A stretch of DNA of 64,000 nt, from NCBI RefSeq assembly GCF_011397635.1, contig NC_064769.1:21903207-21967206 (forward strand), given 5' to 3'. The translations under genes and the position numbers were made by a program. This document shows, piece after piece, positions 588 through 53,000 of the stretch (its first letter is position 1; each line of letters begins with the position of its first letter). Below the pieces are notes generated by a model, which ran no database searches, was not told the DNA's origin, and worked only from the letters and a program-made list of their open reading frames with translations. The DNA comes from Epinephelus fuscoguttatus. Lineage: Eukaryota; Chordata; Actinopteri; Perciformes; Serranidae.

Positions 588-733
588 GTGAACCTGGGCA
601 GCTAGTCGGCAGGATCATTCAGAATGATCCCCTTCGGAGGTTTGACGGATATGTCAACCAATCAGCAACCAGCAAGAAGATTGCTCATAGTGTTTTCAAG
701 AAGGGAGACAGTGCCTATCTCTCTGGTTAGTGT

Positions 734-764
<31 letters not shown>

Positions 765-5789: not shown

Positions 5790-7450
5790 TGAGCAGGCTG
5801 ACCACTACATCTACACATGTACACATAGACACACACGCATACAGAAAAGACATTAATGTGTGACCAGGATAGCAGAATGCAGGACCTCGCCCCAGTATAC
5901 AATGCATTTAAAGTAATAGCCATACACACTCCATGCATCCGTACTCATATGCCAACACATACACACACATTATATTCCCCAAACCCACTTTGCTCTTTGT
6001 AATCCCGAAAAACACACACACACACACACACACACACATAGCACCACTCCATCCATCCCCGGCTACTCCTCTCGCTACCTCAGCAAACACAGAGAGAGGC
6101 ACAAACCTAGTAACCAGGTCGATTTGGTAACTTGAAACCACCCTTCATAGCCATACACTCCCTGCCCACACAGGCCTCAAGACAGCCACGTCTGGCCATC
6201 CTGGTCCATCAAACCACGTGTTGCTGGGGGACACTCCTTGGGGGGACACAGAGTTCAGGCTCCCTGGAAACCAGAATGCAAAACTTGAAACTGCAGATAA
6301 CCACAGACTTAAAAGGATGCTGAGAAGAATGTGGATTCAGTACAGAAACTGTGCACAACAGAGGGACCTACGAGGACCTAAACTGTCACTCGGTTCGTTG
6401 TATCGTCAGCGAGATTGTTTTGTGAAAGACTGAAGGCTCTACCGTCGACTCAACCTGCACAATTAGCCCGCAGTGATAACCCTGTGTGACAGCTTTACTC
6501 TATCTGAGGTTAACTGTGTCCTCCTTTCTGCCCTTGAGATGAAATGAGTAAAGGACACCAAGTTTTTTTTAAAAAAGGGAACAACAGAAGGATGTGAGGG
6601 ATTTTGGAAAGCATTGGACGTGTAACCCACGGTTACAGAAGTTAAATTTAGACCAGTGGTTGAGGCGGAAAGATCTACTAAAGTGCAATAGGGCTCCAGC
6701 GTTTGCAGTGCAATAATCAGCCGCACCACAGGAGAGCTGATATAAAAAACAAAGCTTTGTATTTAAATATGTCACACCAAATATATTTAAGTTGTAGTGC
6801 TTGTTTACATATTTAAGAAAATATGGAAGTTTTAGTAATTTATGTTTAAGCTTTCTCTTTTGTTATAGTGCAGGTTATTTTTGCTTTACGTGTATCCAAA
6901 TCTTCAGTAACTTTTGAAGTCCTCAAAAATGAAGCTGCAGTATGCATTTTATATCAGCTGCTGGAACACAAAGTCAAGTGGTCTGACTGATCCAGCCCTG
7001 GGCTAAATCAATGGGGCTATTTCTGTAAACACATGCTGACATGCAGTGTGTTTGCGTGGCTGTGTTGTGCAGGTTTTGTCCGAAAAGGTAGACTGTCGTA
7101 CGGTGTGTGTATATTCTTCTGAAACTGAAAGAGGACTTTACTGGAGATAAAGAAGCACCAAATCGCACCATCAGCGAGGACTTGTGTTTTCAACAATACT
7201 CTGGTGCTAAAGACGGATGTTCTGCCAGACACAACAGAGCCGAAAGATCCAAAGATTCAAAGGCGGGAGTGGGGACGTTGTGACGGAGGGGGTTGCGTCG
7301 AAATGGAACAGTAGAAGAAGAAGAAGAAACCGTGCTTTGTCATCGATGTTTTGTCTGTTGCTTGCACTAGCTGTCATCAGAGGTTGTAGCAGCATGAATG
7401 AGCATCATTATCCACGCAAGCAGAGCACTGTGCCTTACTGTGAGTTCACC
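5790..7450 (+). other. slc27a4: slc27a4 3' UTR and downstream sequence
   Basis: This follows the slc27a4 stop directly. It holds a (CA)n run at about 6011-6037 and several short frames with no recognisable domains. I see no canonical AATAAA within the first 1.6 kb, so the 3' UTR end is undefined. Confidence 0.4.
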
Positions 7451-18476: not shown

Positions 18477-21400
18477 ATGAGGACCACTGGGGTCGCCGTT
18501 GTCATGGTGATGTTGTGCGGGATGATGGTGGACGCAGAAGTGAAGCCGCAGAAAGATTTCAACCTGCAGGAGGTAAGATGGACACACACACACATCCACG
18601 CTACTTTTTTAGAATGCTTGTTTAAAGCATCAAAGTGTTTGATTTGTTAAAGGTTCTTCTCTCATTATGTGTCATGTATCAAGATATGATGAGGGAACGC
18701 TGTGTCCTGTGCGTGTGTGTGTGTGTGTTTGCATAAGAGAAGAATAGCAAGAGTGAGAGTGACAACGTGTCCATACGTGTGTGGCTATGAGTAAGACAGT
18801 CAAAGTTTAGGAACAGTGACCCAAAACAAACATTATGGGATTAAGTCTCGCCTCAGGACAAATTGTTATGATTAATAAATTTGTGAATCCTTATTTTCCT
18901 GGTTTCCTCACACACGAGAGGTTGAGAGAGGTCAATCTGACATTTCCCAGGGTAAACACATCATGAGAAATGCCTTCATTTGTTTCCTGTGGCTGATTTG
19001 ATTCTCAATTTATCCCAGAAGCATTTTAAAGATCTCTGTGGTGAGATTTTTTCATCTTCATCAGAGGGTCAGTCACTTGCCAATCTGTTGTGGGTTAATG
19101 TTGAATATTGGACAACATCCAGCCGGTGAGCCAGTAACTTACGCTATGATTTCCCTTTTGTACAAAGCCTGAAGCAGCTCAAAGACAATAAAGCAGCATA
19201 CAGACAGTATATCCCATCTGAATCCAACATTCACACTCGTTCCGTCCAGTCAGTGTTTAACAGGATCTATGTACAGATATGAGGAAATGCTGTGGTTAGC
19301 GGCAGTGTTTGCAGCAGGGTACAAATACAGCTCACTTGTTTTCCCAGTGGGGCCATTTATGCTAAAAATATCGACACCACACTTGTATGTGTATGTATGC
19401 GTAAAAAACTGTTTTGTAAATATTGCAATGCACATTAAAGGATAAGTCTAATTAACAAGAACTGCTTGCAAAGCCTGATGCACTTTATTCCTCTGTGTCA
19501 TATAACTCCATTTTGGTCCAAAACTATTAAATACAGATGAGCTACACAGCTGCACCATGGGACATGTTCCTTCATCATGATGAATATGGGCACTGTATTT
19601 TATTTTGAGTCACTCCCACACACACCTTATTGCTTCCTTAAAGTGAAAAGTTTTTAAGACAGTTTTATTGCTTTAACTTATCATTATGAAGCAAATGTTA
19701 ATTGCACAATGCAATGGCTAGAGAATAATAATTTTGTCTGCCTCCAGGTACATTCTTTCGGTAAATTGAAGGCTCAATTTATGACACAGAGGAAGTGCGT
19801 CGACCACTGCTGTATCAAAAACAGGACGTTTCCATTCAAATGCAGCACAAATTTTAACTTAATGGACAGGAAATTGAAAAAAAAAAAAAGCAGGTTTATG
19901 TGCTTTTTTCCAACCACTACTGTACTACTATTGTTGTGCCAATTTTCCAGTCAGGTGCCACAGTAGAAGATGTAATAAAGCACCAGCCAAACCTCAAATA
20001 TAAAAGAAAATAATGAATTATAATAATAGCGAGCACACTGGACAATGGAAATAGAGAGTTTTGAGCAACTAACAATACAACTCTGTGCTCTTCGAAGGGT
20101 TCTGGCAACAACCCTTATTATTGGTCTTAGTGTTTTCCAAGGATGTGTTGACAATGACAAAATATATGCACAGGTGCAACAGTGAAATTAATGTTCAGAA
20201 ACTCAAGATTGTTAATATGTCCACTTGATTTTGTGTTTGTGTTTAGTTCACAGGGAGATGGTACCGGGTGGGCCTGGCCTATGACTCTCCGGGTTTTGCC
20301 CCCTACAGAGACAAACTGAAGGCCTCCATGGGCATCGTCACAGCTCTGCCAAACGGAAACGTTAACCTCACAATGTGGGATGCAACGTGAGTCTGTCTGT
20401 GCACAAAAATAAACACAAGTGTATGCGCTGGTCAAATAAGAGAGAGGACAAGGGGATGCATGGAGGGAGGTTCAGAAAAGATAAAGACACATTGTGTTTC
20501 CTCTGTGTGCTGCAGACCATTAGGTTGTCAGATGAAGGTGTATCACTATGAGAAGACCAATGTACCTGGACAGTTCACCTACTTCAGCACACGTAAGTTT
20601 CTGCTCACTTTTAATCTGACTCATCAACCTTCCCAGGAATGAGGAGACAGGTTTACTTAGTTACAATGTAAATATTTGACTGGCACTGAGTGAGTGTTCG
20701 CAGCAGTAGAGCAAAAAAAATGTATGTCTGGACCTGCAACATTGCGAGCAAATAACTGCAACCACAGATGGATCACTGACCAGGCCTCAGGGCCCAAAGT
20801 ATCAGGGCTCCCCTCTGGCCTTCATCGGCAAAATGTCACTGAAATTAACAAGTATTGACCAGGAAGAGACTCAAAATGACTACAAAGAGACACAAGAAGA
20901 CTAAAAGGAGATGCAAAGACACACAGAATAGCTAAAAAAATGTGGATAAACATCCCCAAAGAGAAACAAAAAAAAACCAAGAAGATGCAAAGAGACACAA
21001 ATTAACTATGAATCAGGGTAAAACAACCACAAAGAGACACAAAAAGACCACAAGGAGATGCAAAGAGACACAAAAAAGCTACAAAATGGGGAAAAACATT
21101 CCCAAAGAGACACAAAAGGAACACAAGAAGATGCAAAGACACAGACATTATCTACCAAAAAAGGTAGGACAGCCACAAAGAGACACAAAAAGACTGCAAG
21201 AGGATGCAAAGAGACACAAAATAGCTACAAAATGGGGGAAAACGTCCTCAAAGAGACACAAAAAACTACAAGAAGATGCAAAAAGACACAAATTAACAAC
21301 AGAACGGGGCAAAACAACCTCAAAGAGACACAAAAAGACCACAAGGAGATGCAAAGAGACACAAAAAAGCTACAAAATGGGGAAAAACATTCCCAAAGAG

Positions 21401-22507
21401 ACACAAAGGGAACACAAGAGGATGCAAAGAGACACAAAAAGACTGCAAGAAGATGCAAAGATACACAAAATAGCTACAAAATGGGGCAAAACAACAAAAG
21501 AAGACACAAAATCATAAAAAAGAGCCAATACAGGAGTAGGAGAGGTGATGGGGTCTTTTGCAGAAATGTGCCCAGGTTCCTATCGTCTATTGATCGTCTC
21601 ACGATCCACCCATGGCGCCAGGCTGTAGATATGTGATGCAGTTTCACATTTTTTTATTGGATTTGATTTGCTTACTCAATCTGATTACAGCTGGGGAATG
21701 TAAGAATCATTTAAGGCCTATAAATAAATATTCTTGTCAAGTGACCCACATGACCACACATGATCACATATGACCACAACGAGCACATGAATAAAAGCCA
21801 TAGTGCCCAGGCAAGACATGTGACAATCATTACAGTCAATATGTATTTATAAGTGCCGTAAAAATGATTTATGATAAACGTTGCAAGAATGAGAATGAAA
21901 GCAAAGCAGAAATATATTATATTATATTATCCTATAGAGAACATTACAATGTCACTTACATGGATTTCCATTCATTCTCACATGCCTCTGGTTAGGTTAA
22001 TATGTCCTACTGAATGACAGAAAGTCTCTGTCCCTCACTTCTGTGTTGTGTTTTCTCTCAGGCCACAACATGGTGAAGGACATCACCGTGGTGGAAACAA
22101 ACTACACTAGCTACGCTCTGGTGGTCAAACACAAAGTTTTTAACAGAGAGTACACACAGGTGGCACTTTACGGTGAGACACACACACACATTTTTACATC
22201 ATGCTAAACCTGTGAGCTGCAGAGTCAACACCGACTGTATGTGTCTCTGTACTTGTCTGCAGGTCGCACTCAAACGGTCAGAACTGATGTAATTCAGAAG
22301 TTTAAAGTCTTCGCTATACACCAGGGTTTCCCCAGAGAGTCTATCTTGACTCCACCTCCAGCAGGTAAAGTGAGGAATGCACACATATCTACATATAAAG
22401 AGTTTACACACGCACACACAGGGATAATGAGGAGAATTAAGTGACCCTAAAGTTTCCCTTATGTTTTCTGCCCAACAGAAAATTGCCCAGCATCAAGATC
22501 TGGTTAG
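18477..22507 (+). CDS. ptgds-like lipocalin (prostaglandin D synthase family, catalytic Cys replaced)
   Basis: Coding exons are 18477-18572, 20247-20386, 20516-20592, 22062-22172, 22263-22364 and 22479-22507, giving 184 aa with stop TAG. The start ATG has context tcagccATGA; the upstream in-frame TTG is not needed. Residues 1-20 form a hydrophobic signal peptide ending near VDA. The lipocalin GxW motif is at 35-37 (TGRWYRVGLA), and the conserved block RTQTVRTDVIQKF lies in exon 5. C83 and C178 match the lipocalin disulphide. By alignment in mind, the L-PGDS catalytic Cys (SMC in mammals) corresponds to G61 (SMG), so PGD2 synthesis is unlikely and small-lipophile transport more likely. N72-L-T is a glycosylation sequon. 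It lies first in a tandem lipocalin cluster with two ambp genes. Family membership is firm; orthology to ptgds is inferred. Confidence 0.85.
18573..20246. other. intron 1 of the ptgds-like gene
   Basis: It holds short CA/GT runs (18580-18592, 18712-18728) and no recognisable exon. The T/A-rich frame at 19709-19966 contains no lipocalin motif. Confidence 0.55.
20868..21515 (+). repeat. A-rich minisatellite in intron 3 of the ptgds-like gene
   Basis: Tandem, imperfect units are built from acaaagagacacaaaaagac, aagatgcaaagagacac and 'agctacaaaatgggg'. The array stays open in two plus-strand frames (191 and 192 codons), yielding KETQK/KRHKK-type repeats, but shows no codon preference or splice signals. 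It lies between exons 3 and 4 and appears to sit inside a larger dispersed repeat, since sequence after it (21530-21715) recurs at 24000-24175. Confidence 0.85.
21530..21715 (+). repeat. dispersed repeat segment, copy 1
   Basis: This segment shares ggggtcttttgcagaaatgt, 'gcccag', 'tgatcgtctca', ccatggcgccaggctgtag and 'gtaagaatcatttaa' with 24000-24175 in the same orientation. It appears to be the end of the repeat that carries the minisatellite. Confidence 0.6.
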
Positions 22508-24632: not shown

Positions 24633-24646
24633 ACTTTGCTCTTTTA
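24633..24646 (-). promoter_or_regulatory. HNF4-like site upstream of ambp copy 1
   Basis: ACTTTGCTCTTTTA lies about 90 bp before the start codon and is identical to a word upstream of the second ambp gene (32629-32642). Read on the minus strand it gives agagcaaagtct, close to the HNF4 direct-repeat consensus AGGNCAAAGTCCA. Liver-type expression of ambp under HNF factors is established in mammals; function here is inferred. Confidence 0.4.
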
Positions 24647-24733
24647 GTTTTGTGTTTCCTGTAGTGTTGTGGGAGGGAATTTACAAAATCCAAAACAGGC
24701 AGTGAGTCAGTTTGACTTACAGGGGCTGACAGG

Positions 24734-26331
24734 ATGCAGAGAGCCGTGATTCTGGTGCGTCTGGTGGTCATGGGGTCGGCCTGGATTGGGCAAGCGGTCC
24801 CAGTGCTCCCAGACCCTCTTATTCTCACACAAGAGAACTTTGATCTGGGCCGGGTGAGTAGGCTAAAACATAAGTTCTGGTATTTTCTTTATAAATCATG
24901 TCATATTTTTCTCTTTCCCCCTCCATCTTGTTGTCATGCACAAAGCTTTGCTGCACAAATATTTCTGTGTCCCTTGCAGTTCATGGGCAGGTGGTATGAG
25001 GTAGCTGTGGTGTCTACTTGCCCTCACTTCATGCAGCGCAAGAGGGGAAACCCTGTCATTGTCCCACTGGAGCTGCAACATGTTGACTCTGAAGGCAACT
25101 TCACAATGACAGCCACTAGTTTCAGGTCAGACTTACATGCCATGTGGTAGTGTAAAGTATGTTCCATTTAGTATAACCTGTGCTGTGTTTACATGTGTGC
25201 CTGCATGTAGGAATGGCACATGTAAGCAGATGTCCACAAATTACGCTTTGACCAACACTCCAGGACGATTCTTCCACCATGTTGCGAGTATGTTTCTCCA
25301 ACTTCCTTCCTCTCCTCATACTTGTGAATATAACTCTAAGTTCTGCCCTTGGTTATGCTAAACTAAATCTGTCATGCAATGCACATAGCGTGATTTTGCC
25401 AAGTGCTCCTGGATCAACATCCCACATTGCATTCTGACCAACATTGCAATCAACTAATCATCACAGCCCTAGCTAGCTCCCCATAATTAAGTTGGTAAAA
25501 TTGAACAAAATCCTCAGTAACATTAAACTTGCAATTAGGCTAGAATTTTAGCAAGCTAGCTTGCTAACTAGGAAGGCTAGGCTAAAGAGTAATATTGCCC
25601 ATAGGCACTAGGAAGGCTATGCTAACTAGTAAACTTGCCAATAGGCTAGAATATTAGCAAGTTAGCTTGCTGACTAGGAAGACTATGCTAACGAGTAAGC
25701 TTGCGATTAGGCTAGAATTTTTGGCAAGTTAGCTCGCTAACTAGGAAGGCTAAGCTAACGAGTAATATTGCCCATAGGCTAGAATTTTAGCGAGTTAATC
25801 TGCTAACTAGGAAGGTTATGCTAACTAGTAAACTTGCCAATAGGCTAAAATATTAGCGAGTTAGCTTGCTAACTAGGAAGGCTATGCTAACTAGTAAACT
25901 TGCCAATAGGCTAAAATATTAGCGAGTTAGCTTGCTAACTAGGAAGGCTATGCTAACGACTAAGCTTGCCAATAGGCGAGAACATAGACATATATACATA
26001 GACGCCGCATCGAGCGCTGAGCTGTACTTCAGCGTCATATTGGATGTGGCAAGGCTGCGCTGTAAACTAATACAAGTGAATGGACTTAATTTCATAAAGC
26101 GCCTTTCCACAAAGAAATTTACGTTAATGCCTCTCGTTTATTCATTCACACACACACTAATATACTTGGGAAACAGTTAGGCACCAAAAACAATGTATTT
26201 GATCTTCTCAGATGGCTAAGATAAGAACTTTATTGATCCCACACAGGAGTAATTCACCTTACATCAGCTATAGAGAAGGAGGTAGTGCCGAAAAACAATA
26301 CACAGTACACAGTACACATATACACACACAC

Positions 26332-26383
<52 letters not shown>

Positions 26384-26428
26384 ATATATATATATATATA
26401 TATAACAGAACATTTACTGCAGGGTCGC

Positions 26429-26480
<52 letters not shown>

Positions 26481-26799
26481 GCGACCCTGCAGTAAATGTT
26501 CTGTTATAATGTCAGTGTTCTGTGAGTTAATGGCATGTTTGGGATTGAATGAGTATAGGTAGGGGGGTGGGGTACAAGTATGATGGGAATGAGCAATGTG
26601 TGAGGGGGCTGGTGTGTGTAGGAGCGAGCTGGAGGAGAGAGCAGGAGTGCACAGTTGGAGTTACAGCTAAGTTCTTGTTTGTTGGTTGTTCTGGCGTGGT
26701 TACGGCCAACAGTAACCTGTACTGTTCAGTAATAAACAGTGGTTTACCGAATAACTGCGTCATCCTTTCTACACGTCCTGGTGGACGCTACAGTAGGCC

Positions 26800-26833
<34 letters not shown>

Positions 26834-28965
26834 TAGTGCCGAAAAAATTCACAGTATATACTGTGTATTGTTTTTCGGCACCACCTTCTCTATGGCTGAT
26901 GTACGGTGAATTACTCCTGTGTAGGATCAATAAAGTTCTTATCTTAGCCATCTGAGAAGATCAAATACATTGTTTTTGGTGCCTAACTGTTTCCCAAGTA
27001 TATTAGTGTGTGTGTGAATGAATAAACGAGAGGCATTAACGTAAATTTCTTTGTGGAAAGGCGCTTTATGAAATTAAGTCCATTCACTTGTATTAGTTTA
27101 CAGCGCAGCCTTGCCACATCCAATATGGCGGCGACGTTGACGTATCGCAGCAGCGGGCAAACCCACTCGATGCACTGTCTACGTATACATACTTATATGT
27201 CTGTGGGCGAGAATATTAGCAAGTTAGCTTGATAACTAGGAAGGCTAGGCTAACAAGTAAGCTTACCAATAGATTAGAATATTAGCGTGTTAGCTTGCTA
27301 ACTAGGAAGGATATATGCTAATGACTAAGCTTGCCAATAGGCGAGAATAGCAAGTTAGCTTGCTTACTAGGAAGGCTAGGCTAACAAGTAAGCTTGCTAA
27401 AAGGCTAGAATATTGGCAAGTTAGCTTGCTAACTAGGAAGGCTATGCTAGCATGTAAGCTTGCCAATTGGCTAAAATATTGTACACTAATGAAGAGTGTG
27501 GATAATATCATTTTTCAGTTGCAAATACCCACAATTAACACATTTTCCCTCTTTTTTATAGCCTTTTTTTTTTTTTTGCAAGTGCAGTGCTTGTGTTGAC
27601 CCAGGACCACAATGTCAAATAAAAACAGTTTTAAATAGGCAAGGAAAAAACTGCAAAATGACAAATGATCCAGAAACATGTCCTAACCCTAACCCTGTGT
27701 TCCTGTCTGCAGGGTTCGGAGTGGATGTTGATTCCTTCGTGGTTCACTCCAGCTATGATGAGTACGCAATGATGCTGATACTGAGCACAGAAAAAGCATC
27801 AGGAAATAAAACCATCATAGTCAAGCTTTATAGTGAGTGACAATTGAATCTATATTAATTTGTAGCATTTTTTTGTATGAATGTATTGTTTTTAATTGAA
27901 TTTATGGATGACTCTGTGTGATGGTAATAATGTCCTCAGGTCGAACTATGAGTGTGAGAGCAGCTGTGTTGGAGGACTTCAAAACTCTGGTCAGACAACA
28001 TGGAGTGAGTGATGAAACCATCATCATGAATCAGAATAAAGGTGATGCACACTAACATTAAGGACTCTCCTTAAAACCCTCCCTAGAGTATAAAACATTT
28101 CATTTTCTCTGGCGTTTTTTTTTTTTTTTTTTTTTACAAGAGGCAACAAATGTTGTCTAAATGAAAGACAGACACCCCCCTTTCCATCTTACTGTCGTTC
28201 CAGGTGAGTGTGTTCCAGATGAGCAGGTGACAAAGGCCATCACGACTCAGCCTCAGGTAGGTGCCTCACACCGTGATGTGCTGAAGTGACATTTGCATAA
28301 TGAAACCAGAGATGTGTGTTTAATCAGTCACCAGTTAAACCTTGTATGTCTGTCATTAAGAGTTCTGATCCCAAGAGGAGGAAAAGAAATTCGGTGCTAC
28401 CTATGGTTCCTGCACAGGAGGAGGATGCTGGCAACGTTTGGCCAGGTGAGAGCACACCTGAATAAAAACAATCAATCAGGGAGAAGGAGTCTCTAATGCT
28501 GCTGTCAATCATGTCAGTCGTTGTTGGTGAACTGTGGTCAAACTGTTTAACTAGGCAGCGTTGATCAAATGAACCAAGATTCTGTTTATTCTAACAGTGA
28601 CTGACATGACTGGCAGCTGTTAGAGACTCTTCAGCTCTGACTGGTTGTTGGCGCGTCATGAATGCCATTAGAAGCAGTAGGAAGAGGAGACAGTGCAGAC
28701 TAATTGCCTCATATACCCCTTTAAAATATAGTGACAGTTTCAGCAATTATGATATTTTCATAAATGTTACAAATTGTAGCTTTACAGGTTACAAAAAACC
28801 GAATTGTGCTCAGTGTTAAATTCCTCTCATTATACACTCACTCTGACTACCACAGATCACATGTGGTAGCCCATGGGATCAGTAATCCTCACATATTCAA
28901 TGTCATCAACATTTTATTCAATTTCATGTCTACATGTTTTGCCTTTATCAGACAGTGTGGAGTGA
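24734..28965 (+). CDS. ambp: ambp-like alpha-1-microglobulin gene lacking the bikunin Kunitz domains
   Basis: Exons are 24734-24853, 24980-25125, 25211-25287, 27713-27832, 27940-28041, 28204-28256 and 28361-28445 (acceptor could also be at 28376), plus a proposed terminal exon 28952-28965 ending in TGA. This predicts about 238 aa. It has a signal peptide (MQRAVILVRLVVMGS), GRWYEVAV as the GxW motif, C54 at the radical-scavenging Cys34 position (STCP), and the C93/C191 disulphide pair (GTCK, ECVP). Residues 212-215, RRKR, are a furin site. In the complete ambp, bikunin follows this site; here only about 20 residues follow and no Kunitz exon exists before the next gene. The bikunin glycosaminoglycan serine is also replaced (EEDAG). 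The last exon is a prediction; an alternative acceptor at about 29608 would end in TAA. It is a tandem duplicate of ambp. Confidence 0.8.
25540..25982 (+). repeat. minisatellite, about 60-66 bp unit, left part
   Basis: Tandem units read roughly as gttagcttgctaactaggaa, ggctatgctaac, gagtaagcttgccaatagg and ctagaatattagcaa. The array lies in intron 3 of the first ambp copy and continues at 27206, being split by an inserted element. Confidence 0.85.
26320..26401. repeat. (CA)n/(GT)n(TA)n microsatellite
   Basis: Runs of ca, then tg, then ta dinucleotides. Additional (TA)n tracts lie at 26432-26477 and 26803-26831, on both sides of the LTR. Confidence 0.9.
26402..26507. repeat. perfect 30-bp inverted repeat around (TA)n
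   Basis: Positions 26402-26431 are the exact reverse complement of 26478-26507, separated by 46 bp of TA repeats. The right arm is the first 30 bp of the solo LTR, so the left arm is an inverted copy of the LTR start. Confidence 0.85.
26478..26792 (+). mobile_element. solo LTR, probably Ty3/gypsy-type
   Basis: About 315 bp bounded by GTAGCGACC at the start and GGACGCTACA at the end, near-inverted termini like TGTAGCG...CGCTACA LTRs. AATAAA at 26731-26736 lies in the second half as in an LTR R region. No internal retroelement sequence adjoins either side. The first base pair of the canonical TG appears lost into the TA tract. Target duplication cannot be seen because both flanks are TA repeats. 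Confidence 0.55.
27206..27480 (+). repeat. minisatellite, right part
   Basis: Continuation of the array at 25540-25982, with aggaaggctaggctaacaag and gttagcttgctaactagg units. It ends near 27480 before exon 4 of the first ambp copy. Confidence 0.85.
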
Positions 28966-28995
28966 AGAGATGACCGAGAGGACAGAAATGTTGAA

Positions 28996-29001
28996 AATAA
29001 A
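28996..29001 (+). other. polyadenylation signal of ambp copy 1 (candidate)
   Basis: AATAAA 30 bp after the TGA of the proposed terminal exon, followed by tttttacttcac. A second AATAAA at 29874-29879 would serve the alternative last exon near 29608. Confidence 0.5.
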
Positions 29002-29049
29002 CTGCAGCAGGCATTTTCATGCCAAGCCTTTTTACTTCACATCCTCACA

Positions 29050-29490
29050 CACACTCTAAAGCAGGGATAGCCTGCTTGCTTTTCCCAGAGGCCTTGTTGG
29101 CAAAATGACAGGAGGCCAGGGGGTAGTCAATAGAAAAATATTGGTGATATTTATCAGTATATAATAAATAAATTGCCTGTTTCCAACCTTTAAGTGTTTG
29201 TATCCTCACTCATTCTGCCAAGAGGCAAATCCAGTCCCAGCAGCCCTGCACAGGTCAGGTGTATGCAGGGGGTGTTTCTAGGATTTGAGGACTGGGGGGA
29301 TCCTCCACTGGCACTTTTCAAAATTAATAAACAAGCTCTGTTTTGCTGATTTTTGTGCACTCTGGCCCCTTATTCAAATTCAAAGCATAATTTATTTTCA
29401 CTGAGAATTAGAAAATGGCTGGCTGGCCACCCAACACTGGGCCAGATTTGGCCTGTAGGCAGTAGGTTGAGTATCACTGCTCTAAAGTAT
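29050..29490. repeat. dispersed hAT-like repeat
   Basis: This block starts 'gcagggatagcctgcttgc' and ends ggttgagtatcactgctct. It shares tataataaataaattgcctg, ggggtgtttctaggattt and 'tgcactctggc(c/a)cctta' with 54925-55190 in exd3. Ends of the 'agtgatactcaac' type suggest a hAT-derived element. Confidence 0.5.
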
Positions 29491-29992
29491 TCAGTTGTGT
29501 GCATACAAATATCAAATCTAAAAAAAAAAAAGAAATAAAGAAAAACATGACACATATTGTATTTCTATCCAGTTTGAGCATATTAATATTTAGTTTACTG
29601 TTACAGGGTGGACAGATCATGTGGAATAACTGAAGAGGAGAATCGTCACACAAACCAGACTATCATGTTGTCACACTACTATGCTGAGTGTAAAAAAAAA
29701 AAAAAACTCAATTACTCAATGGATAAAATGACCCTGTTTTGTTGGTACTGACTTCTGTAGATCGGAACATACTGTATGATTACCATATGTTACACTATAA
29801 CTATTGTCTTGTATTTTCATATTCATAATATGCTTGATAAAATTGAAAGTCAATTTATAATGGCACCTTGCAAATAAAATGATTCCGTTTTTATCAGTGT
29901 GAACCTGATCTTTCGGAGCTCTGAACTCTGTAAGAAGTTAAATTTAACTCCCCTTGCTGATGAAATAAATACTTGGGAGCAATATTTACTGT

Positions 29993-30383
29993 AGGGCGGC
30001 ACGGTGGTGTGGTGGTTAGCACTCTCGCCTCACAGCAAGAGGGTTGCCGGTTCGATCCCGGGCGTGGGAGCCCTTCTGTGCGGAGTTTGCATGTTCTCCC
30101 CGTGTCAGCGTGGGTTCTCTCCGGGCACTCCGGCTTCCTCCCACAGTCCAAAGACATGCAGATTGGGGACTAGGTTAATTGATAACTCTAAATTGTCCAT
30201 AGGTGTGAATGTGAGCGTGAATGGTTGTCTGTCTCTATGTGTCAGCCCTGCGATAGTCTGGCGACCTGTCCAGGGTGTACCCTGCCTCGTACCCTGCCTC
30301 TCGCCCGATGTCAGCTGGGATAGGCTCCAGCCCCCCCGCGACCCTCAAGAGGATGAAGCGGTTAGAAGATGAATGAATGAATG
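29993..30383 (+). mobile_element. tRNA-derived SINE with 12-bp target duplication
   Basis: The sequence starts AGGGCGGCACGGTGG. It has a pol III A-box-like TGGTGTGGTGG (30005-30015) and B box GGTTCGATCCC (30049-30059), spaced as in tRNA genes. It ends in (GAAT)n. AATATTTACTGT flanks it on both sides (29981-29992 and 30384-30395) without mismatch, so the insertion looks fairly recent. It lies between the two ambp copies. Confidence 0.85.
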
Positions 30384-30899
30384 AATATTTACTGTTTAGA
30401 TATACTGGTTAGCACTCTAACTCCAAATACTATATTGTTTTAAATCTATTGATTATCTATGTTCAATTCTTTATCATGAAGGGAACTCTGCTGTGGGTCC
30501 TTCTAATGCAGAATGAATAAATGCTCTTTGAATGAAAGCAATAGCTGAGGCCTAAAAAGAAAAACATGTGCGGGAAGCCTTGTTATATAATGCCATTTAA
30601 AGAGGACCTGTTATACTTAATTACAGGTTCACACTTGTATTAAGGTTTCTACTAGAACAAGTTGTTTACATGCCTCAATGTCTGTGCTGAAACACCTGTA
30701 TTCATCCTCTGTTTAAACGTTTGTCTCTTAAATTTGAATGACTAATGGAGAACAGTGGCACTTTTTACCATTTAAAAAAATCACCAATAAAAGTTTTATT
30801 AACACAACCAGACATGTACTATCAGGAACATGATCTGAAATCAAGGAAAAATTACCAACATGTTTCATAGTTTGCACTTTCTACCTGCCATACATGCCT

Positions 30900-31546
30900 T
30901 TCTCTCAATTCACCATGTAAATTTCCACTAGCCCGCCTCTCCACTACACCTACCTGTCAGTCTATCACCTGTCCATACATCTCCTGCTCCTGTTGATCCA
31001 CCACATACACCTCATTAAGCCAGCTCTGCTCACCTGTTGCTCATTACTCCCTGCCACTATAAATATCCCAGCTTTACAGACTCTCGTGGCCAGATTGGTC
31101 TTTGTCATATTCATGCAAGACTTTTGAGTCTGTGTTCCTGGACTGCTTTCTTGTTGCTGACCTTACCTGTCACTGACTCTCCTGCTTCGTCTGCTCCCTG
31201 GTAAACCACTTAGCCTTCTATCCCCAACCAAGAGCTCACCTGGTATCTGACCCTCTGTTCTTCTGACTTTGCCTCCTGATTGCTCTGTCACAGAACCACT
31301 GCACATGTTGGAACTGTTTGTGTGCATCCAGCAGACACCTGTGACTCACCTGCTCTCTGCTTCGGTGTGCTAGGCCAAGTACTCAGTACTGAACCTGTAT
31401 CTTGGAAGGCTCTGAGCCAAGAAATTGTCTCACTCTGTTATTTCACCTGCCTGCCCATTCTGTGTTTGACAAGCAAACACAGGACATTACAAACTTTCCT
31501 GTCTGCCTTTGGTGCTGCAATTTGGTTCTTACCATACCCGTGACAA
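30900..31546 (+). mobile_element. LTR-like sequence
   Basis: This C/T-rich block has a TATA box (ctataaat at about 31057), followed by text typical of fish gypsy LTRs. It ends 'ctgcaatttggttcttacca' then tacccgtgaca. A matching TGT start could not be placed and no target duplication was seen, so boundaries are approximate. Confidence 0.4.
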
Positions 31547-31786
31547 TGTCAGCAACCAACATTACATGTTTCCATGATGCTTGCATGTAGCTTCATGTGG
31601 CAGTGTAGGCTACATAAAGTTAACACTTGCATAACGTTCAGATTGGTAGGTTTTTGCTCACAGGGATTACTTTTATGTACGTTTGCCTTATAATGTGAAA
31701 CTTTGGTGAAGATTAATATGAGCATCCTTTATTACAACATGACACAAATAGAGAAAAGTGTAATAGCTCCCCTTTAAATGTTGATT

Positions 31787-32091
31787 ATTCATTCTTAATG
31801 CGTAACCGCTTATCCTGTTAAGGGTCACAGGAGGGCTGGAGCCTATCCCAGCTGACACTGGGCAAGAGGCGGGGTACATCCTGGACAGGTCACCAGACTA
31901 TCACAGGAGTGACACATAGAGACTGACAACCATTCACACTCACATTCACATCTATGGGCAACTTGGAGTCACCAGTTAACCTAACCTGCATGTCTTTAAG
32001 ACATGTCCAATGGGCCCAAGTCGATGGATTCGAACCCACAATCCTTTAGCAGTGAGGCAACAGTACTAACCCATGCACCACTATGTCACCC
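31787..32091 (-). mobile_element. tRNA-derived SINE, older inverted copy
   Basis: On the minus strand it follows the element at 29993 block by block (for example ggctggagcctatcccagct, acaaccattcacactcacat, ggattcgaaccc as the B box). Imperfect 9-bp flanks atgttgatt (31778-31786) and atgtttatt (32092-32100) match at 8 of 9 positions. Confidence 0.75.
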
Positions 32092-32175
32092 ATGTTTATT
32101 GGATTTTTGTAAATAACTTTCATTTCATTTGATGTACAGAGCTTCTAAAAAATGGTGCATGTAAATAGCCTAACA

Positions 32176-32484
32176 TAGTGGTTCTCAACCCTTATCATGT
32201 CAAGGACCCCTCAATTAATACACATAGTTCAAGTGCCCCCATTTCTCTGTCTGAAACAGTTATGATTGTTAGATATGGTTAAGATCAGAATTCCATACTG
32301 GTCAACATCAGTTGAGTTGATAATCGTGAAAGTAAGTAAAACCTATCAGAATATTTTCTCTTAAGAGTCTTACTAACACTTGACTCACTTCTATAGCGAA
32401 TTAAATAGTAAAAATAAACCATTACCCATTTATCTGGGTACTCAAGGAGCTCTGGAGGCCTTGACCCCTGGTTGAGAACCACTG
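32176..32484. mobile_element. hAT-type MITE
   Basis: The terminal inverted repeats are TAGTGGTTCTCAACC and, inverted from the right end, CAGTGGTTCTCAACC. The flanks gcctaaca (32168-32175) and gcctacca (32485-32492) match at 7 of 8 bases, as for a hAT target duplication. Non-coding, 309 bp. Confidence 0.75.
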
Positions 32485-32628
32485 GCCTACCATATAGAAT
32501 ACAGGATACAATATCACGTTACTCATGAGTCTCTCAGATCATGGTTCGTATCGATTTACTGTTACCAAAACTCTGGAGTCCAACGTTCAAATGATCAGCC
32601 GCTCAGGCAAGTCAAAGCACAAAGCAGA

Positions 32629-32642
32629 ACTTTGCTCTTTTA
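32629..32642 (-). promoter_or_regulatory. ambp: HNF4-like site upstream of ambp
   Basis: ACTTTGCTCTTTTA lies about 190 bp before the start codon and is identical to 24633-24646. On the minus strand it reads agagcaaagttctg, close to the HNF4 motif. A second candidate half, gtcaaagcacaaag, lies just upstream at 32611-32624. Confidence 0.4.
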
Positions 32643-32832
32643 CTTGTTTGTTTTTTACTTGGCTAAGGGAGCGGGTGCATGCACAGTACACAAAACACAG
32701 GTCAATGCCCTGTCCCCATTTGAAGAGTTGAGTGGGGGGTGTAAGAAACAATGAGGAGGTGGCCCTTTCTGGGGGATTCAGTGCCTCAGGCATCACTCCT
32801 CTCAGAGACGAGTGGACACACAGGCTGTCAGG

Positions 32833-35800
32833 ATGCAGAAGGCAGTGATTCTGGTTTCCTTGCTGGTCCTGGGTTGGTCCCAGACCCTTCAGGGACTCCC
32901 TACACTTCCAGAGCCTCTCTATCCTACGCAGGAGAACTTTGACCTGAACAGGGTGAGTTTTGAGTTTTTCCTCTCTTTTATGTTTGTCATTCTGTCTTTT
33001 TTTAATGCATACATTCAGCATACAAGGTAAAAGGCAGAAGCACAATTCTTATGTGTTTTCTTTTCTATCCTTCACTTTCAGTTATTAGATTAATATCCTT
33101 TGATATTTTGGGGATAAAATGTGTCATCCTGCCAGCTGTGGAAACTTTCATATATTAAAAACATTAAAATCATGAATAGAAAATAAAACCTCTGATGATC
33201 TTCACCTGTGAAATGTTGAAACTGTGAAAGCAATTTGGGCCAGAGGCGATAGTTTATATTGTCTGTGTTAAGTGAGACTTTGTGTTCAGAAGTTTTTCAT
33301 CGTGAGAACTATTATCATGAGCTCTTCAAAGGGCTTGATATCTTGCAATTGGTTGAGTATGCGTCCTTTATTAGTGCCTCTTACAAGTGTTAATGCAGCT
33401 AAAAGAAACTTTCATTTTGTGTTGATTTTGGCGGCCTCTGTGGATGAAAGCAGTAGTGTTTTCAAAATGAAGACTGCATTTCCCATTAGCACCACCGCCT
33501 TGTAAGACCTTAATAGGGTTCCAGTAATATAACTGGATGTTGGACTTCCCCTTTAGTTTCAATATTTTCAAAGGGCAGACTTTTTACACATACTTCCATT
33601 TACAAAATGGTTTCAAGCTTCAGTTATCATAATAAAACATTTGTTCAACCAACAATAACCCTTCCATTTTCATTCCTTTAAAGGTCATTCTGACTGATAA
33701 TGATACAAATTCAGTAATGGCGTGTTACCGTGGCTCCGCGATATTTCTGAGATGGTTACTGTACCATGAAAATCTCATACCATTGCAACCCTAGATCTTA
33801 ATTTGGCTAGTGTGGGCGTTTATTTTTGGAAGTGATTGAAAAACAGACACGATAGCTTGGCTATGTTTTAGCCACCAAAAGAAATTCACATATTGATGTC
33901 GAACCTTGTCTCGCAATGTATTACATAAATAAAATAGACATATTAGCTGTCTAGTAGGAAGCAATAGTAGGAATTTGTTTGCCTGATTTACAGAGAATCA
34001 CGCCCGGGGACAGGCATTTAGAATAACTATATAGAAATAGCTAATCTTCTCGCTGATTGCCTCATTTGCTTAGGTAGGTCATATGAGGACATCAGTATTG
34101 AGTTGAGACTGTTTCATAACCAGTTAAAAAAATCTTTGTAGCTGCTTTAAAGTGTCATGAGAAGTATCTTTAAAACAAATACAGTACAATAAATATATCA
34201 AAATCTAGAAATATAATTAATACTTTAAACTTAAAACTTTATGTAGTTTTAGTTGGGAAGGTTGTAGTGATGGGATATGCAGTACTAGTCTCAGTTGCGC
34301 GAAATATTTTCATTTTGTAACAACTTTATTTTTATAGTACTCAGTAAATGTGTATTTTAATAAAGTGAGATGAACAAAATTATTTTGGTGTTTTTGATCT
34401 GAGCTTATAGTTTTTTTGTGTATTACATCAGTAATATTTAGATAGGTAGATTATGGACCTCTTTTTCACAGTTTTTGGGAACATGGCATGACGTTGCCGT
34501 GGCGAGTTCATGTCCCTATATGCAACGTAACAGGGGAGATGCAGCCATTGGGACACTGATCCTGCAGAGCGGCACTGAAGGCAAACTCAAGACTACTCGA
34601 AGGGTACTCAGGTTTGTAGAAAAAGCACGCATTGTGCATTTACACAAACACACTACTGCACAAATACTGTGTATCAAAACATATGTTTTTGAAATTTGGA
34701 AAAAATAAGAATGTCGAAAGTGAAAATTTGGAATGTTTAATCTTAAAATTTTTGACTCTCTCTCCAAATATTTTGTACTTGCTTGATATGACAACATTTC
34801 AGTGCAAAGTTTAAAGTGTAAAATCGAGTGGTGGAAGGTCACTAACTATAAATACTAGGTCTACAGTGCTGAATTGTACATTTTTAACTTGAGTATTTCC
34901 ATTTTACACTATGTTATACTTGTTCCTCTCCGCTAAATTTCAGAGGGAAGTATTGTACTTTGTCCTTCATCAGACAGATCAGATGACACAAAATATAATA
35001 TGTGATACGATGAGTTATTATAGATTGATAGCCAACAGTATTTTAAGAGGTTAAAATTAGCACCACCTTTACCAGCTTCAACATTAGTGATGCTTACACA
35101 TTAGAACATTAAAAATAATTCAATGATATATTTTAGTGATGAGCAAGTGCTTCATTATCTGTAGCTGTATTTGTATGTGGTCAGCCAATAAAATCTGTAT
35201 CCATATCTGTACTCTGAACAGGCGGGGTTAAAACTGGACTTGGGTGGGGCCTAAGCCACATTTCACTTGGAAGATATCTGTACCCATAAAAAGTACATTA
35301 TCTGTACCGGATACTTGTTTCATCGAAGTATTAGCTCAACCCTAATATATATTCTTCCCAAACATGATTTGTGTGACAATTCATATCTAAATGTTTCGTG
35401 TATGTGCAGGCAAGGAACATGTAAGGAGATGACTGTGGACTATGAGTTGACCACCACACCAGGACGATTTACCTACCATGTTGCCAGTATGTTTCCCTCT
35501 GTGTAATCCTGCAGTGACACACCTCGCTTTGCAATTCATGTTGTCCACAAAGTTTCTTTACAGGTAATATTTTCTCTCAATGTCCTCTCAACAGGGTGGG
35601 CAGCAGACGTGGATGCCTACGTGGTTCACACAAACTACAATGAGTATGCAATAGTGATAATGGGCAAACAGAAATCGTCAGGGGATAAGAGCACCTCCGT
35701 TAAGCTTTACAGTGAGTGGACACTTTTCATACATGCCCTGGAACATTTCACTCTGTTATTTATTTGCTAATTTCAGCTTCAATTTACTAAGATAGAGCAT

Positions 35801-38636
35801 CTCATTGGGCATGAATAAATTATTAATTATTTGTTTTATTTACATCCGCTTCATCTCAATTATTCTGTCCCCTTCAGGTCGAACTATGACTGTGAGAGAC
35901 ACTGTGCTGCAGGACTTCAAAACACTGGTCAGAGAACAGGGAATGAGTGATGACACCATTATCATTAAGCAGGACAAAGGTACAACACAGATACTTGCAT
36001 AGACCTCAGGATATGAAACATTCAGACAATGTTTTAAGGAGCGATGACAAGGAAAGAGATGCTACCATTACTCTGCATGAAACAGTTATTGTCTAAAAGA
36101 GGAAATTATGCAGCAAATAATACAAATAAATAATACATGTTGACATTGAAAGAATAGCTATAGAGCGTGTGGGTGTCTACATGATATGTTTCTGTTTAAA
36201 ATCTTTGCAGGTGACTGTGTTCCTGGAGTGGTGGTGGTTGAGCCGACTGCTCAGCCTGAGCCTCAGGTACTCAAAGTATATTTAATTAATCTAACCGGAA
36301 TTATTATATGATGTATATTTAGATTGTTTTCAACCAAACACAATGAAACAAATGCACTACATTTTTAATATAATTTGGTTCTTGTTTTATTCTTCTGGTG
36401 ATTTAAATCAGCTCTGCTTTAGGCCCGTTTTTGTCATTTTTAGGGGGCACAGGGAATCTTAGGCGGAGATAGGTCAACAGGATACGCTACATAGAAGTGG
36501 TATTGATCTGAAAGCAGGGAACCTGAAGATTAATTTGAGGTGCAACAAGTTTTCTAGTTATAACTATATACAAAAAAATAATTCCAACTTTAGAATTTAG
36601 AGTGTAAAAAGGCGCCTAAGAACATTATAATGGAAGCAAATGATGGTCATTCCCATGCACAGTTAGGTCTCACAAATTGTTGCAGCAATTTTTTGTTTTG
36701 ATACCATTTGCTACACAGATTTGGCACTAAATTTAAGCACATTTGGACACTTGAGAATTGATAAAAATGGTAAAAATCCCTCTAAAATACCACATTACGA
36801 ACCAAGACCTTAAACGAGCGCCATAGAAAACTACATGCTGTGATTTGGTATCAAAACCTTTTGACATTGGTGAGCACTTTTGTACTGGAAACAATTAACA
36901 TACTTATGAAAGCCATGCATGCTCTGAATATCCAGGCTCTCTAGTTTGTGGCTGTAAAGCTTAATGAGGCTGTGGTTATTGGAGAGGTCACTATAGGTCA
37001 TTTTATACAGTCATGTCTATCAAAAATGGCCTCACTATAGTGAAATGGTTTCTGTGGGGACTAACATCATTACACATGAATAAAACTGGATCACCGAATC
37101 CACAAGAGTCTCAGCTTTGCAGCTGTACCCCATATATGCAATTCCAAGACTGTTGCAGGGACCCCAGTTTGCAGAAATATTCAAATGCAAAATGCAGCGT
37201 GGTTTTTGCCCTAAAGTGCTTTGGACTAGCATAAAGTGGACATTTCTGTAAAGGGGAGAAAAACCCATAGAACCCATTTTCATTTCGATATCTTGAGATG
37301 AGAGGTCAAGGGACCCTTCCTGATAAGATAGCATAGCATGTTTGGATTCTTCAGGCCCTCAAGTTTCACATGATACCAGTATCTTCACTCTTGCTAAAAC
37401 TCAGCCGGCTACAGCCTCTTAAAGACACAAATATCAGCCAAGCTTGTCATCAGTCCCGTGGATCTCTTCAAAAAACATAGTTTTAAGAGTTGGAATATAT
37501 AATATAGTGTTAAATAATTTTTTTAAATCTTTTTTTTAGTATTAGAAAGCATGTACATAAAAAACAATCATACTTTATATACATATTTTTCTTTTTCTTT
37601 TTTCCACCCTAACAGCATTGTTCAGTCATACAGCCACAAAAACATTTACATATTTGCAGGGAGGTAACAATGTTAAATAATTATTTAATAAATGTGGGCA
37701 GTGCATTACATGTTGTAACTTACAATGCCATTATAATTTTACTATTATGATTAAATGCTGCAACTATAATGTAGTTTGGAGTTCCTGTCTCAAAAGATTT
37801 TGAAACAGACTAATGGAACATTTAAGCAGAATATCTGGTGATCAAATGTCTTTTTATCTCTAATCTGTGATATAGCGGAGGAAGAGAGACGTGGTGCCTA
37901 CTTTGGCTCCTGCAGATGTTGAGGGTTCTGGTGATGACACACCTCTTTTCAATGGAACTGGTGAGTGATTGTCTTGCTCAGTTGAATACGCTTAGATATT
38001 ATTGTATGACATGGCACATCCTGTTTCAGCTAATGGTCTTTGTGATGTCTCTCTCCCTCTTTCTCCATATAGAGGCCTGTAATGCAGCACCAGATACAGG
38101 ACCATGCTTTGGGACGCACCAGCGTTTCTACTACAACTCCTCCTCAATGAGCTGTGAACTATTCAACTATGGAGGGTGTATGGGCAACCAGAACAAGTTT
38201 GAAACTGAGAGAGAGTGTCTGCAGAGATGTCGCACTGAGGGTGAGGAGTGAAGAAACATCTGCATATGTGTGAGCTGTGAAAAAAAAATTAAAAATGAAA
38301 CTCCTGGAAATACAGGCAAATATGAACACTGATTTGTTGTGTCTCCCTAGCTGTGTGCCGTCTGCCCTTGGCGCCCCAATCCTGCACGGGCCAGCCATCC
38401 ATCTGGGCCTTTGACTCCACCATGGGTCTGTGTGTGCCCTACAAACAGGGCTACTGCCAGGGCAATGCCAACAAGTTCTACAGCAAAGCAGAGTGTGACG
38501 AATACTGCGGGGTGATGAACGATGGTGAGATGATAAAGTAGATAAAAAAACAAACCTAATCTCCACTCAACTGTCATCAAAATGTTTCATGTCTTTTTGC
38601 TCTTTTACAGAGGGAGAGCTCCTGAGCACAAACTGA
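32833..38636 (+). CDS. ambp: alpha-1-microglobulin/bikunin precursor (AMBP), complete
   Basis: Ten exons: 32833-32952, 34472-34611, 35410-35486, 35595-35711, 35878-35979, 36211-36266, 37876-37960, 38073-38240, 38351-38524, 38611-38636. They give 354 aa, near the human length of 352. The secreted precursor is cleaved into alpha-1-microglobulin, a heme and radical scavenger, and bikunin, the Kunitz inhibitor and light chain of inter-alpha-inhibitors. A signal peptide is followed by the lipocalin domain: G43-x-W45, C54 (reactive Cys), C91 and C188 (disulphide). R205-R-K-R208 is the furin site. E220-G-S222-G is the expected chondroitin sulphate attachment. Kunitz domains occupy about 235-285 and 291-341 with all six cysteines each. 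The P1 residues are Phe245 and Thr301. The protein ends ELLSTN. It is preceded by a Kunitz-less tandem copy. Confidence 0.93.
32953..34471. other. ambp: ambp intron 1, no gene seen
   Basis: AT-rich intron. The 33700-33790 stretch (gtgttaccgtgg, accatgaaaatctcatacca) may be a decayed repeat. The acceptor is ctttttcacag. Confidence 0.6.
34822..35060. repeat. partial copy of the 16700-17300 repeat family
   Basis: It shares 'gtacatttttaacttgagta', tttccattttacac and 'ctaaatttcagagggaagtattgtac' with the canonical family. It is in intron 2 of ambp. Confidence 0.5.
36267..37875. other. ambp: ambp intron 6, no gene seen
   Basis: About 1.6 kb of AT-rich intron. The overlapping 73- and 99-codon frames at 37013-37334 lie on opposite strands and lack motifs. 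Confidence 0.6.
38073..38240 (+). CDS. ambp: ambp exon 8: bikunin Kunitz domain 1
   Basis: This exon encodes one BPTI/Kunitz unit with cysteines at residues 235, 244, 260, 268, 281 and 285, the standard spacing. The reactive loop is GPCFGTHQRF, so P1 is Phe245, where human has Met. N254-S-S is a sequon at the human bikunin N-glycan position. YGGCMGNQNKF is the canonical core. Confidence 0.92.
38351..38524 (+). CDS. ambp: ambp exon 9: bikunin Kunitz domain 2 with unusual reactive loop
   Basis: Cysteines are at residues 291, 300, 316, 324, 337 and 341. The loop reads QSCTGQPSIWAFD, making P1 Thr301, where human bikunin has Arg. The core usually written YGGC reads QGYC here, with Tyr323 in place of the second glycine. 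The fold should be retained, but trypsin-like protease inhibition by this domain is doubtful. Confidence 0.9.
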
Positions 38637-50000: not shown

Positions 50001-53000
50001 ACCAACAACACTCATGTATTGTTTCTGGCCGGAATGCTCAGAGCAAAGGATCCACTGTCTGCTAGCTAGCTGTCACTGCACCCTGGACGATATCGGGAAG
50101 TGAAAATTCGACAGAAATTGGCTGTTTAATTCAGATTTTTGTGGCATGACTGAAACTGGAACAAGGCAGTGCATGAAAGGCTTGGTGTGTTTTATGCAAA
50201 AGGTTTTACAAGCCTTGCATACAGGGAATCAAAGCAGTGGAATCCCACATGCCAAGTGTTAAACGCGATCGCAATATGGACGAGGAAATATTGGAGTCAG
50301 ATTTCCCATTTATTTGTATTCTGTACTCTATTTTCTTTTAGAAAAGCATGACAGAGGAGAACTGGAGCGACCATGTACAGGTAGGTGTGTAGAGATACTA
50401 TACTGTCTTATTGTATTGGTATCAATAAGGTATTCGGGTTGTGTTTTTTAACTGCATGTATGTATAGTACGTTGTGGCAGATGACTCTGAGCTGCAGATC
50501 CTATTAGTGGAGATGTTGGTGAAGTACTGTGGTCTACAGAAAGCCTCTCAGTGGTCACTGAGATACAACATCCCCAGGAATCGACTTCCCTGTGGGGTAT
50601 GGGAAACTCAGCAGAGTCTACCGCCTGATCTACAGTGAGTTGGCCAAAATATGCATAAACATATCCTTTTATGCAACTTGCGGTATACACAGGCTGTGCT
50701 TGCTTTATATAAAGAGGCATAGCTGCAGCCTCAGAGTTTTTATCCCTGAGGTTCCATCCTGAGCATAGGTTTTATTCACTAAATACCCTGCTTACATATT
50801 GCATGTCACTCTTTTTCCTTTCTTTCATGTTTTCTGTCCACTCTCACTCTGCAATGGCTGTGTTGTGTTTTTCTTTTCTAACAAAAATACACACATTTGT
50901 CGCCTCTGCTTAGACAGATAGGTCTGAGTGGTTCAGCACAAGCTGAGGAGTGGATACCGTCTCAGTCTCACCGTCAGAAGTTCTACCAGGTGCCGCTCAC
51001 CAAGGACAAGGTTCATTTTGTGGACTCGCTGGAAACTCTTCAGAGATGTCGAAACATTGTGCTGAAGGTACAGAGAACTAAATGCTTGATTTAAAAAAGG
51101 TTTTGTGTCTCTAAATCAACCATTAATGAGAATATTTGTATCTAATGGGAAGGCAAATGTGGTTACTATTAAAAGTATTTAATATGAATCTTTTTTTATA
51201 GTTATTTTTACTGCTGTCTTGCTCACTCCTGTCTTTATCCTCTCTCAGGACGGTGGTATAGTAGGAGTTGACATGGAGTGGCAGCCCACATTTGGCTGCA
51301 TCTCAACTCAGAAAGTTGCCCTGATACAACTTGCAGTTTCGGACCAGGTTTTCTTATTAGACCTTTGTGCAAATGGATTCTGTCAACACCCAGACACTAT
51401 CAGTTTCATCAGGAGCTTGTTCTCTGACAGAAACATCCTTAAACTGGGTAAGAAACAGACTTGATGAAAGTTAAATCAAATTCGTTTTAGGCCTTTTGTC
51501 TATACTTCTGTCTCTTACATTTCTCCTTTGTTGCCGTTCAGGTTATGGTATGTCAGGGGATCTCAAGTGTCTCTTGGCCACCTGGCACCAGCTTTTAGAG
51601 GAGCCACTGCAGATGGAGGGGATGCTTGATCTTCTTAATATACACCAGAAGGTAACATTATCCTGTCATTCACATAACTTCATACAGACTACTTCTAAAT
51701 TTATTCATGCAGTTGGTCTTATGGTGACAATAGAAGAGACACTGTTAGAGCATCAGGCCTCTTTAAAGCTGTAGTTGGCAACTTTTATGATAAATAACTA
51801 ATCTGATATTTGCTAATATATTTGCACAAAATGAGACAGACCATCTGTGAAAAAATGGTGTTCCTCTGCCTACTCTTTTGTCTTGTCTTGGTTCTTATTT
51901 TTCAGCTAAACAGTACACTAAAATATGTTTCTTGATTCATATGATTGATCGGTGTTGCCTAGTTGAGTAGTTGTGATTGACATGAATGGCTGCTGTGTTA
52001 GAGACTCCTCGACTCTGATTTATTGTTTTCGGTGTGACAGATTCTAGTGAATGCTATTCAGGGTTCCTATGGTCATGGAAAACTAAAAATCTTTGAAAGT
52101 TTTGGAAAAGTCATGACATGTTTTTGGTGTGTAATGAAATCATTACACTCATGAATAAGCTTCCATGTAATGTAACAATGGCAAATTTATTTTCTGTAGC
52201 TGTTGATGTAACGTTTCATTTACTATCACGTACGTTTCTCCATTTTCTCTCAGCATTCTGTCTCTCCCCTCATGTGTGCCAGTTAGCTGAAATTATATTT
52301 GAATGGAATTTGAATCCTGTGTCTTTGAAAAAATGCAAGAAAAAAAAACAAAAACTATTAAGGATCCTTGATAAGTCATGGAAAAGTTTTTTTTGTCCAG
52401 GAGAGTGAGCTTCAGGTAGTGACCAAATACAAAGCTGTAATGAGTTTCCTACGTGGGGTGGCTGGGCTCAGCCTTAGAGATAGGGTGAGGAGCTTCAACA
52501 TCCGGAGGGAGCTCGGAGTAGAGCCGCTGCTCCTTTGCATTGAAAGTGGCCAGTTAAGGTGGTCCGGACATCTAATCAGGATGCCTCCTGGTTGCTTCCT
52601 GTTAGAGGTGTTCCATGCATGTCCAACTGGTGGGAGGCCCCGGAGCAGACCCAGAGCACACTGGAGGGATTATATATCTTGTCTGGCCTGGGAATGCCTC
52701 GGAATCCCCCAGGAGGAGCTGGAAAGTGTTGCTGGGAAGAGGGATGTCTGGAGTGCTTTGCTCAGCCTGCTGCCCCCACAACTTGGCCCTGGATAAGTGG
52801 TTGAAAATGGATGGATGGATGAATTGATGGATGGATGAAAAGTCTGTGGGAACCTTGGCTATAAGAAGCAGTCGGACTGTAGCTTCACTTAGTAGAAATG
52901 TGATCCTTTACTAAATCCACGTTTTGATTTGTTAAGTTACATCAGTATCACACTTATCTCACATACATTTTCAAGACAGCAAAAATGGCTTTATGTTACT

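Follow-up and report, generated by a model that had tools for sequence, protein, structure and literature searches.

Evidence for a tandem ambp copy in Epinephelus fuscoguttatus that retains alpha-1-microglobulin and has lost bikunin

Two ambp-type genes at one locus

A tandem ambp copy in which alpha-1-microglobulin (A1M) is kept and bikunin is lost is well supported by the DNA analysed here, a stretch of 64,000 nt (hereafter, the window) that contains no N. Two ambp-type genes lie within it, both on the + strand and arranged head to tail. The first of these, copy 1, is quite probably an old duplicate of the fused ambp gene, minus its Kunitz exons, that would make an A1M-type lipocalin. The structure of this gene, the missing Kunitz domains, the descent from a fused gene and the signs of purifying selection can be read from the DNA itself.

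The second gene, copy 2 (32833-38636, +), is a full ambp gene of ten exons (32833-32952, 34472-34611, 35410-35486, 35595-35711, 35878-35979, 36211-36266, 37876-37960, 38073-38240, 38351-38524, and 38611-38636), settled by a border search in which no other combination of the borders tried gave an open GT-AG model. In its product of 354 residues, Pfam recognizes a lipocalin domain together with two stretches of Kunitz type, and the PDB matches include 1bik of human bikunin (E 9.1e-41) as well as 3qkg of human A1M (E 1.3e-38). The two Kunitz exons, 8 and 9, measure 168 and 174 bases, and each starts and ends in phase 1. A review (PMC7965949) describes an AMBP gene of ten exons, with A1M on exons 1-6 and bikunin on exons 7-10; since the ten exons of copy 2 match this layout, it is considered a normal ambp gene.

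A third lipocalin gene, which is PTGDS-like (18477-22507, +), is located upstream in the same cluster. It has six exons encoding 184 residues, and prostaglandin-H2 D-isomerase is the top PDB match of its product (2czt, E 1e-21). This gene shares with copy 1 the lack of Kunitz domains and the equivalents of C72 and C169, but it is 28.7% identical to copy 1, carries a Ser at the C34 position and has no RRKR exon.

The lipocalin of copy 1 and the signs of its maintenance

Exons 1-7 of copy 1 (24734-24853, 24980-25125, 25211-25287, 27713-27832, 27940-28041, 28204-28256, and 28361 or 28376 to 28445; +) have GT-AG borders and form a single open frame. Together (24734-28445), they specify a signal peptide, an A1M-type lipocalin, an RRKR furin site and a remnant of the bikunin linker. 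The first-pass annotation had described the lipocalin exons and their splice sites as intact, and the furin exon as preserved with its phase-1 donor; the borders and frame bear out the former, while RRKR and the phase-1 donor were both found at exon 7. The acceptor of this exon is ambiguous, with two sites 15 bases apart, and the choice between them adds or skips five residues (SSDPK) ahead of RRKR; the upstream site at 28361 scores higher (3.14, compared to -3.08 for 28376), both scores being low. Within the RRKR codons, the two copies differ at two bases, both of them silent. The order, phase and near-equal lengths of exons 1-7 are common to both copies, which differ in the length of intron 3 (2425 bases in copy 1, 108 in copy 2).

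The copy 1 lipocalin is recognized by Pfam (E 1.1e-20), and its top two PDB matches are human AMBP structures (3qkg and 4es7). Alignment to human A1M places C34, C72, C169, K130 and Y132 in copy 1, and the reactive Cys (C34) and the disulphide pair (C72/C169) are therefore retained, as had been claimed; in the PDB references themselves, position 34 is Ser in the 3qkg chain and Cys in 4es7. Mapped on human A1M, K92, H123 and Y22 are absent from both copies. K118 is lost in copy 1 (Thr in one alignment, Ser in the other), whereas copy 2 has Lys in both. Section 6 of PMC7965949 gives C34, C72, K118, Y132 and C169 as identical across 12 species, including plaice; of these five residues, copy 1 keeps four and copy 2 all five. 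The predicted product of copy 1 is thus an A1M-type lipocalin save for K118, with putative liver expression and secretion; without this Lys, it may be unlike copy 2 in its reductase chemistry.

The two copies are identical at 123 of 230 aligned residues (53.5%), while identity to human A1M is lower for each of them (63/177, or 35.6%, for copy 1 and 65/176 for copy 2), as is consistent with a duplication that took place in the ray-finned fish. The DNA of the furin/linker exon is 71% identical between the copies over 55 bases. We infer that a furin site and linker would be of use only where something once stood behind them, which makes copy 1 the descendant of a fused gene whose bikunin part was lost later. 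The lack of a Kunitz domain would also be expected of a surviving lipocalin that predates the fusion to bikunin; this explanation is scarcely credible and was rejected, as copy 1 retains the furin/linker exon, which belongs to the bikunin side, and probably exon 10 as well, and is closer to copy 2 than to human A1M.

The copies differ at 68, 56 and 99 first, second and third codon positions, respectively, in 230 codons, and the pairwise dN/dS is 0.36 (bootstrap 0.24-0.52). With human A1M as the outgroup, 19 residue changes are unique to copy 1 and 17 to copy 2; if the third lipocalin is used instead, these counts are 14 and 7, a difference that is not significant. When neutral change was simulated in exons 1-7 of copy 2 (1500 simulated copies), the proportion without a stop fell from 28% at 0.05 changes per site to 10% at 0.1, 1.4% at 0.2, and 0.07% at 0.45. 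Copy 1 could be a recently silenced pseudogene whose frame is still undecayed, and the highest of these proportions leaves room for such silencing; the bikunin part, the sugar-bearing Ser and K118 are, furthermore, all gone from copy 1. Nevertheless, we regard this as unlikely, given that the frame and all tested splice borders are intact, that an open frame is so rare among the neutral simulations at 0.45 changes per site, and that the dN/dS is low and the rates equal when measured against human A1M. Copy 1 therefore looks maintained, to judge by its open frame, its splice sites, its dN/dS, the near-equal rates and the upstream box described below. The exon 7 tail behind RRKR differs: of the 23 exon 7 codons compared, 13 differ in residue between the copies, and the differences by codon position (9/7/10) show no third-position excess, such that this tail bears no sign of constraint in copy 1.

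Comparison of the 500 bases ahead of both genes revealed a box at 24633-24657 (+) of copy 1, of which 22 of 25 bases are identical to a copy 2 box at 32629-32653. Among 822 control comparisons, two reached its score of 17.5, and these two overlapped the query. The box resembles liver-type HNF4 and FOXA sites; in a motif scan, a core HNF4 word turned up in copy 2 alone, while FOXA words occurred in each copy, those of copy 1 lying outside the box.

The missing bikunin part and the end of copy 1

Searches for a Kunitz exon behind copy 1 were negative, with controls that worked. A tblastn search with both Kunitz domains of copy 2 against 28446-32832 returned nothing credible (best E 0.12), while across the whole window each Kunitz exon was recovered by the other domain at 33% identity (E about 1e-5). 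A Kunitz profile built from four domains, two of fish and two of human origin, gave a best E of 0.4 in 28446-32832, as against 2.5e-32 and 9.1e-32 at the real exons in the whole-window control, and blastn with the DNA of the Kunitz exons produced, among the matches listed, none below E 3 in this interval. A scan for the Cys pattern returned both Kunitz domains of copy 2 and two chance matches on the minus strand that contain stops. The claim of the first-pass annotation that no Kunitz exon lies between 28446 and the next gene hence stands, and the glycosaminoglycan-bearing Ser of bikunin is gone, as it had also stated: this chondroitin sulphate Ser is Ala in copy 1 (EEDAG) and Ser in copy 2 (VEGSG).

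With the human AMBP precursor (3qkg, 4es7, 1bik), copy 1 shares exons 1-7, the lipocalin, C34, C72/C169, K130, Y132, and a basic cleavage site before the linker, but it is without the Kunitz domains, the sugar-bearing Ser and Lys 118, and its tail is short and unrelated. Its predicted product is not a bifunctional AMBP precursor, as the two Kunitz domains and the Ser are absent, although the basic cleavage site is present. In copy 2, the Ser and K118 are present along with the two Kunitz exons.

A MITE-like inverted repeat (28467-28649, +) begins about 20 bases past the exon 7 donor, with arms of 30 and 25 bases that are 77% and 84% complementary; a related piece is found by blastn at 51973-52027 (80% over 55 bases). 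This element bears on the explanation that the Kunitz exons are missing through an error of assembly, for which the repeat-rich nature of the region might speak. We consider such an error highly improbable: the window is without N, the interval carries the diverged MITE-like element followed by the exon 10 relic in that order, and the replacement of the Ser indicates that the linker itself has diverged.

Three candidate ends of copy 1 were found, each stopping no more than seven residues past NVWP. In the first, the exon 7 donor is read through (28446-28466, +), giving GESTPE and a TAA at 28463-28465 that lies over an AATAAA at 28461-28466. The second is the last exon proposed previously (28952-28965, +), which gives DSVE and a stop, with AATAAA at 28996. 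The third, preferred here as the last coding exon, is at 29607-29629 (+) and gives GWTDHVE, with a stop at 29627-29629 and AATAAA at 29873. An acceptor model placed 29607 third (score 8.79) and 28952 tenth (score 6.59) among 253 local AG sites; this model is small and does not by itself decide between the ends, as its training set, the 18 established sites of the window, spans leave-one-out scores of -10.3 to 14.0.

By blastn, 29598-29634 aligns with the acceptor and the start of exon 10 in copy 2 (73% over 37 bases, E 0.097). In a ranking of 4335 AG sites by their likeness to exon 10 at three flank sizes, which was made after this match had already been noticed, 29607 ranks 1, 1 and 2, and 28952 ranks 311, 390 and 91; with downstream bases only, 29607 ranks 1, 14 and 7 of the 4335. 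Both poly(A) signals are contained in the same 11-base word, AAATAAAATGA, a match that is at chance level when taken alone (E 5.1). On balance, we lean towards reading 29607 as the remnant of exon 10. The exon proposed at 28952 is compatible with splicing, but it is probably the wrong exon, 29607 being far closer to exon 10 of copy 2. Owing to this resemblance, the loss seems to have taken out both phase-1 Kunitz exons while sparing exon 10.

Copy 1 would then be an old tandem duplicate of fused ambp from which exons 8 and 9, both encoding Kunitz domains, were lost. As each of these begins and ends in phase 1, their loss would leave the upstream frame unharmed, with exon 7 joined to exon 10 and the exon 10 relic presumably serving as the last exon. 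Such a gene would yield an A1M-type lipocalin for secretion, complete with the disulphide and the reactive thiol (C34); furin-type proteases of the Golgi would cut it at RRKR, removing a tail of ~26 residues that stands in the place of bikunin. The gene is presumably expressed in the liver, and its product may serve as an antioxidant or haem-binding A1M untied to bikunin output.

Alternatively, transcription of copy 1 could continue into copy 2, with exon 7 spliced to the Kunitz exons there, in which case bikunin would still be made from the copy 1 promoter. Copy 1 exon 7 and copy 2 exon 8 would join in frame, as both are in phase 1 at this junction. Such splicing is nonetheless very unlikely, since 9.6 kb, along with seven copy 2 exons, would have to be skipped, eleven poly(A) signal words are present in 28446-32832, and copy 1 has an exon 10 relic of its own. 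The earlier suggestion that the two functions are separated is correct only in part: copy 1 sets A1M free of bikunin, but the usual fused precursor is still encoded by copy 2. It is conceivable, and we put it forward tentatively, that this fish lineage maintains a free-standing A1M gene, without bikunin, from which furin still releases a new short peptide.

Implications and surroundings of the locus

The 2021 review (PMC7965949) calls the co-synthesis of A1M and bikunin a mystery and describes the fusion as preserved in all species described. If the present proposal is true, this rule would be broken, and the supply of A1M could be adjusted without altering that of the protease inhibitor. If copy 1 is expressed, A1M and bikunin would be made apart. 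The same review cites mice without the A1M exons, in which high-molecular-weight bikunin is defective, and A1M has been proposed to aid the folding of bikunin (Bergwik et al. 2020, via PMC7965949). A natural A1M-only gene beside an intact fused gene would be the reverse of these mice, with A1M regulated without bikunin.

In a phylogenetic study of lipocalins that covered sixteen jawed vertebrates (PMC8420045), AMBP forms one monophyletic fish group, unlike APOD, RBP4 and PTGDS. Among the matches listed in a literature search, which covered few subscription journals and returned partial texts, no ambp copy without bikunin is described. The labels "AMBP-like" and ambpl in the excerpts of the fish literature, including an array table, are silent on the Kunitz part, and annotation labels such as "protein AMBP-like" may conceal A1M-only genes. 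No relatives turned up when viral contigs were scanned.

The flanks of the window contain other genes. The left flank (1-5790) presumably holds slc27a-type exons, with no Pfam family found in the two open frames tested. A 3'-5' exonuclease gene, with DNA_pol_A_exo1 in two open frames (Pfam), occupies 51183-53703 of the right flank, and we assume it to be exd3-like.

Repeats are plentiful across the cluster. Intron 3 of copy 1 (25287-27713) contains a foldback with arms of 258 bases that are 97% complementary (26026-26283 and 26880-27137) and a perfect palindrome (26401-26508), both of which are flanked by 66-base tandem arrays (25607-25982 and 27206-27480). Between the two copies lies an inverted repeat pair (30171-30354 and 31812-31983; 86% complementary), which we take to be SINE-type. 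Finally, an intron of the third lipocalin gene carries tandem arrays built of 73- and 146-base units (20882-21524).
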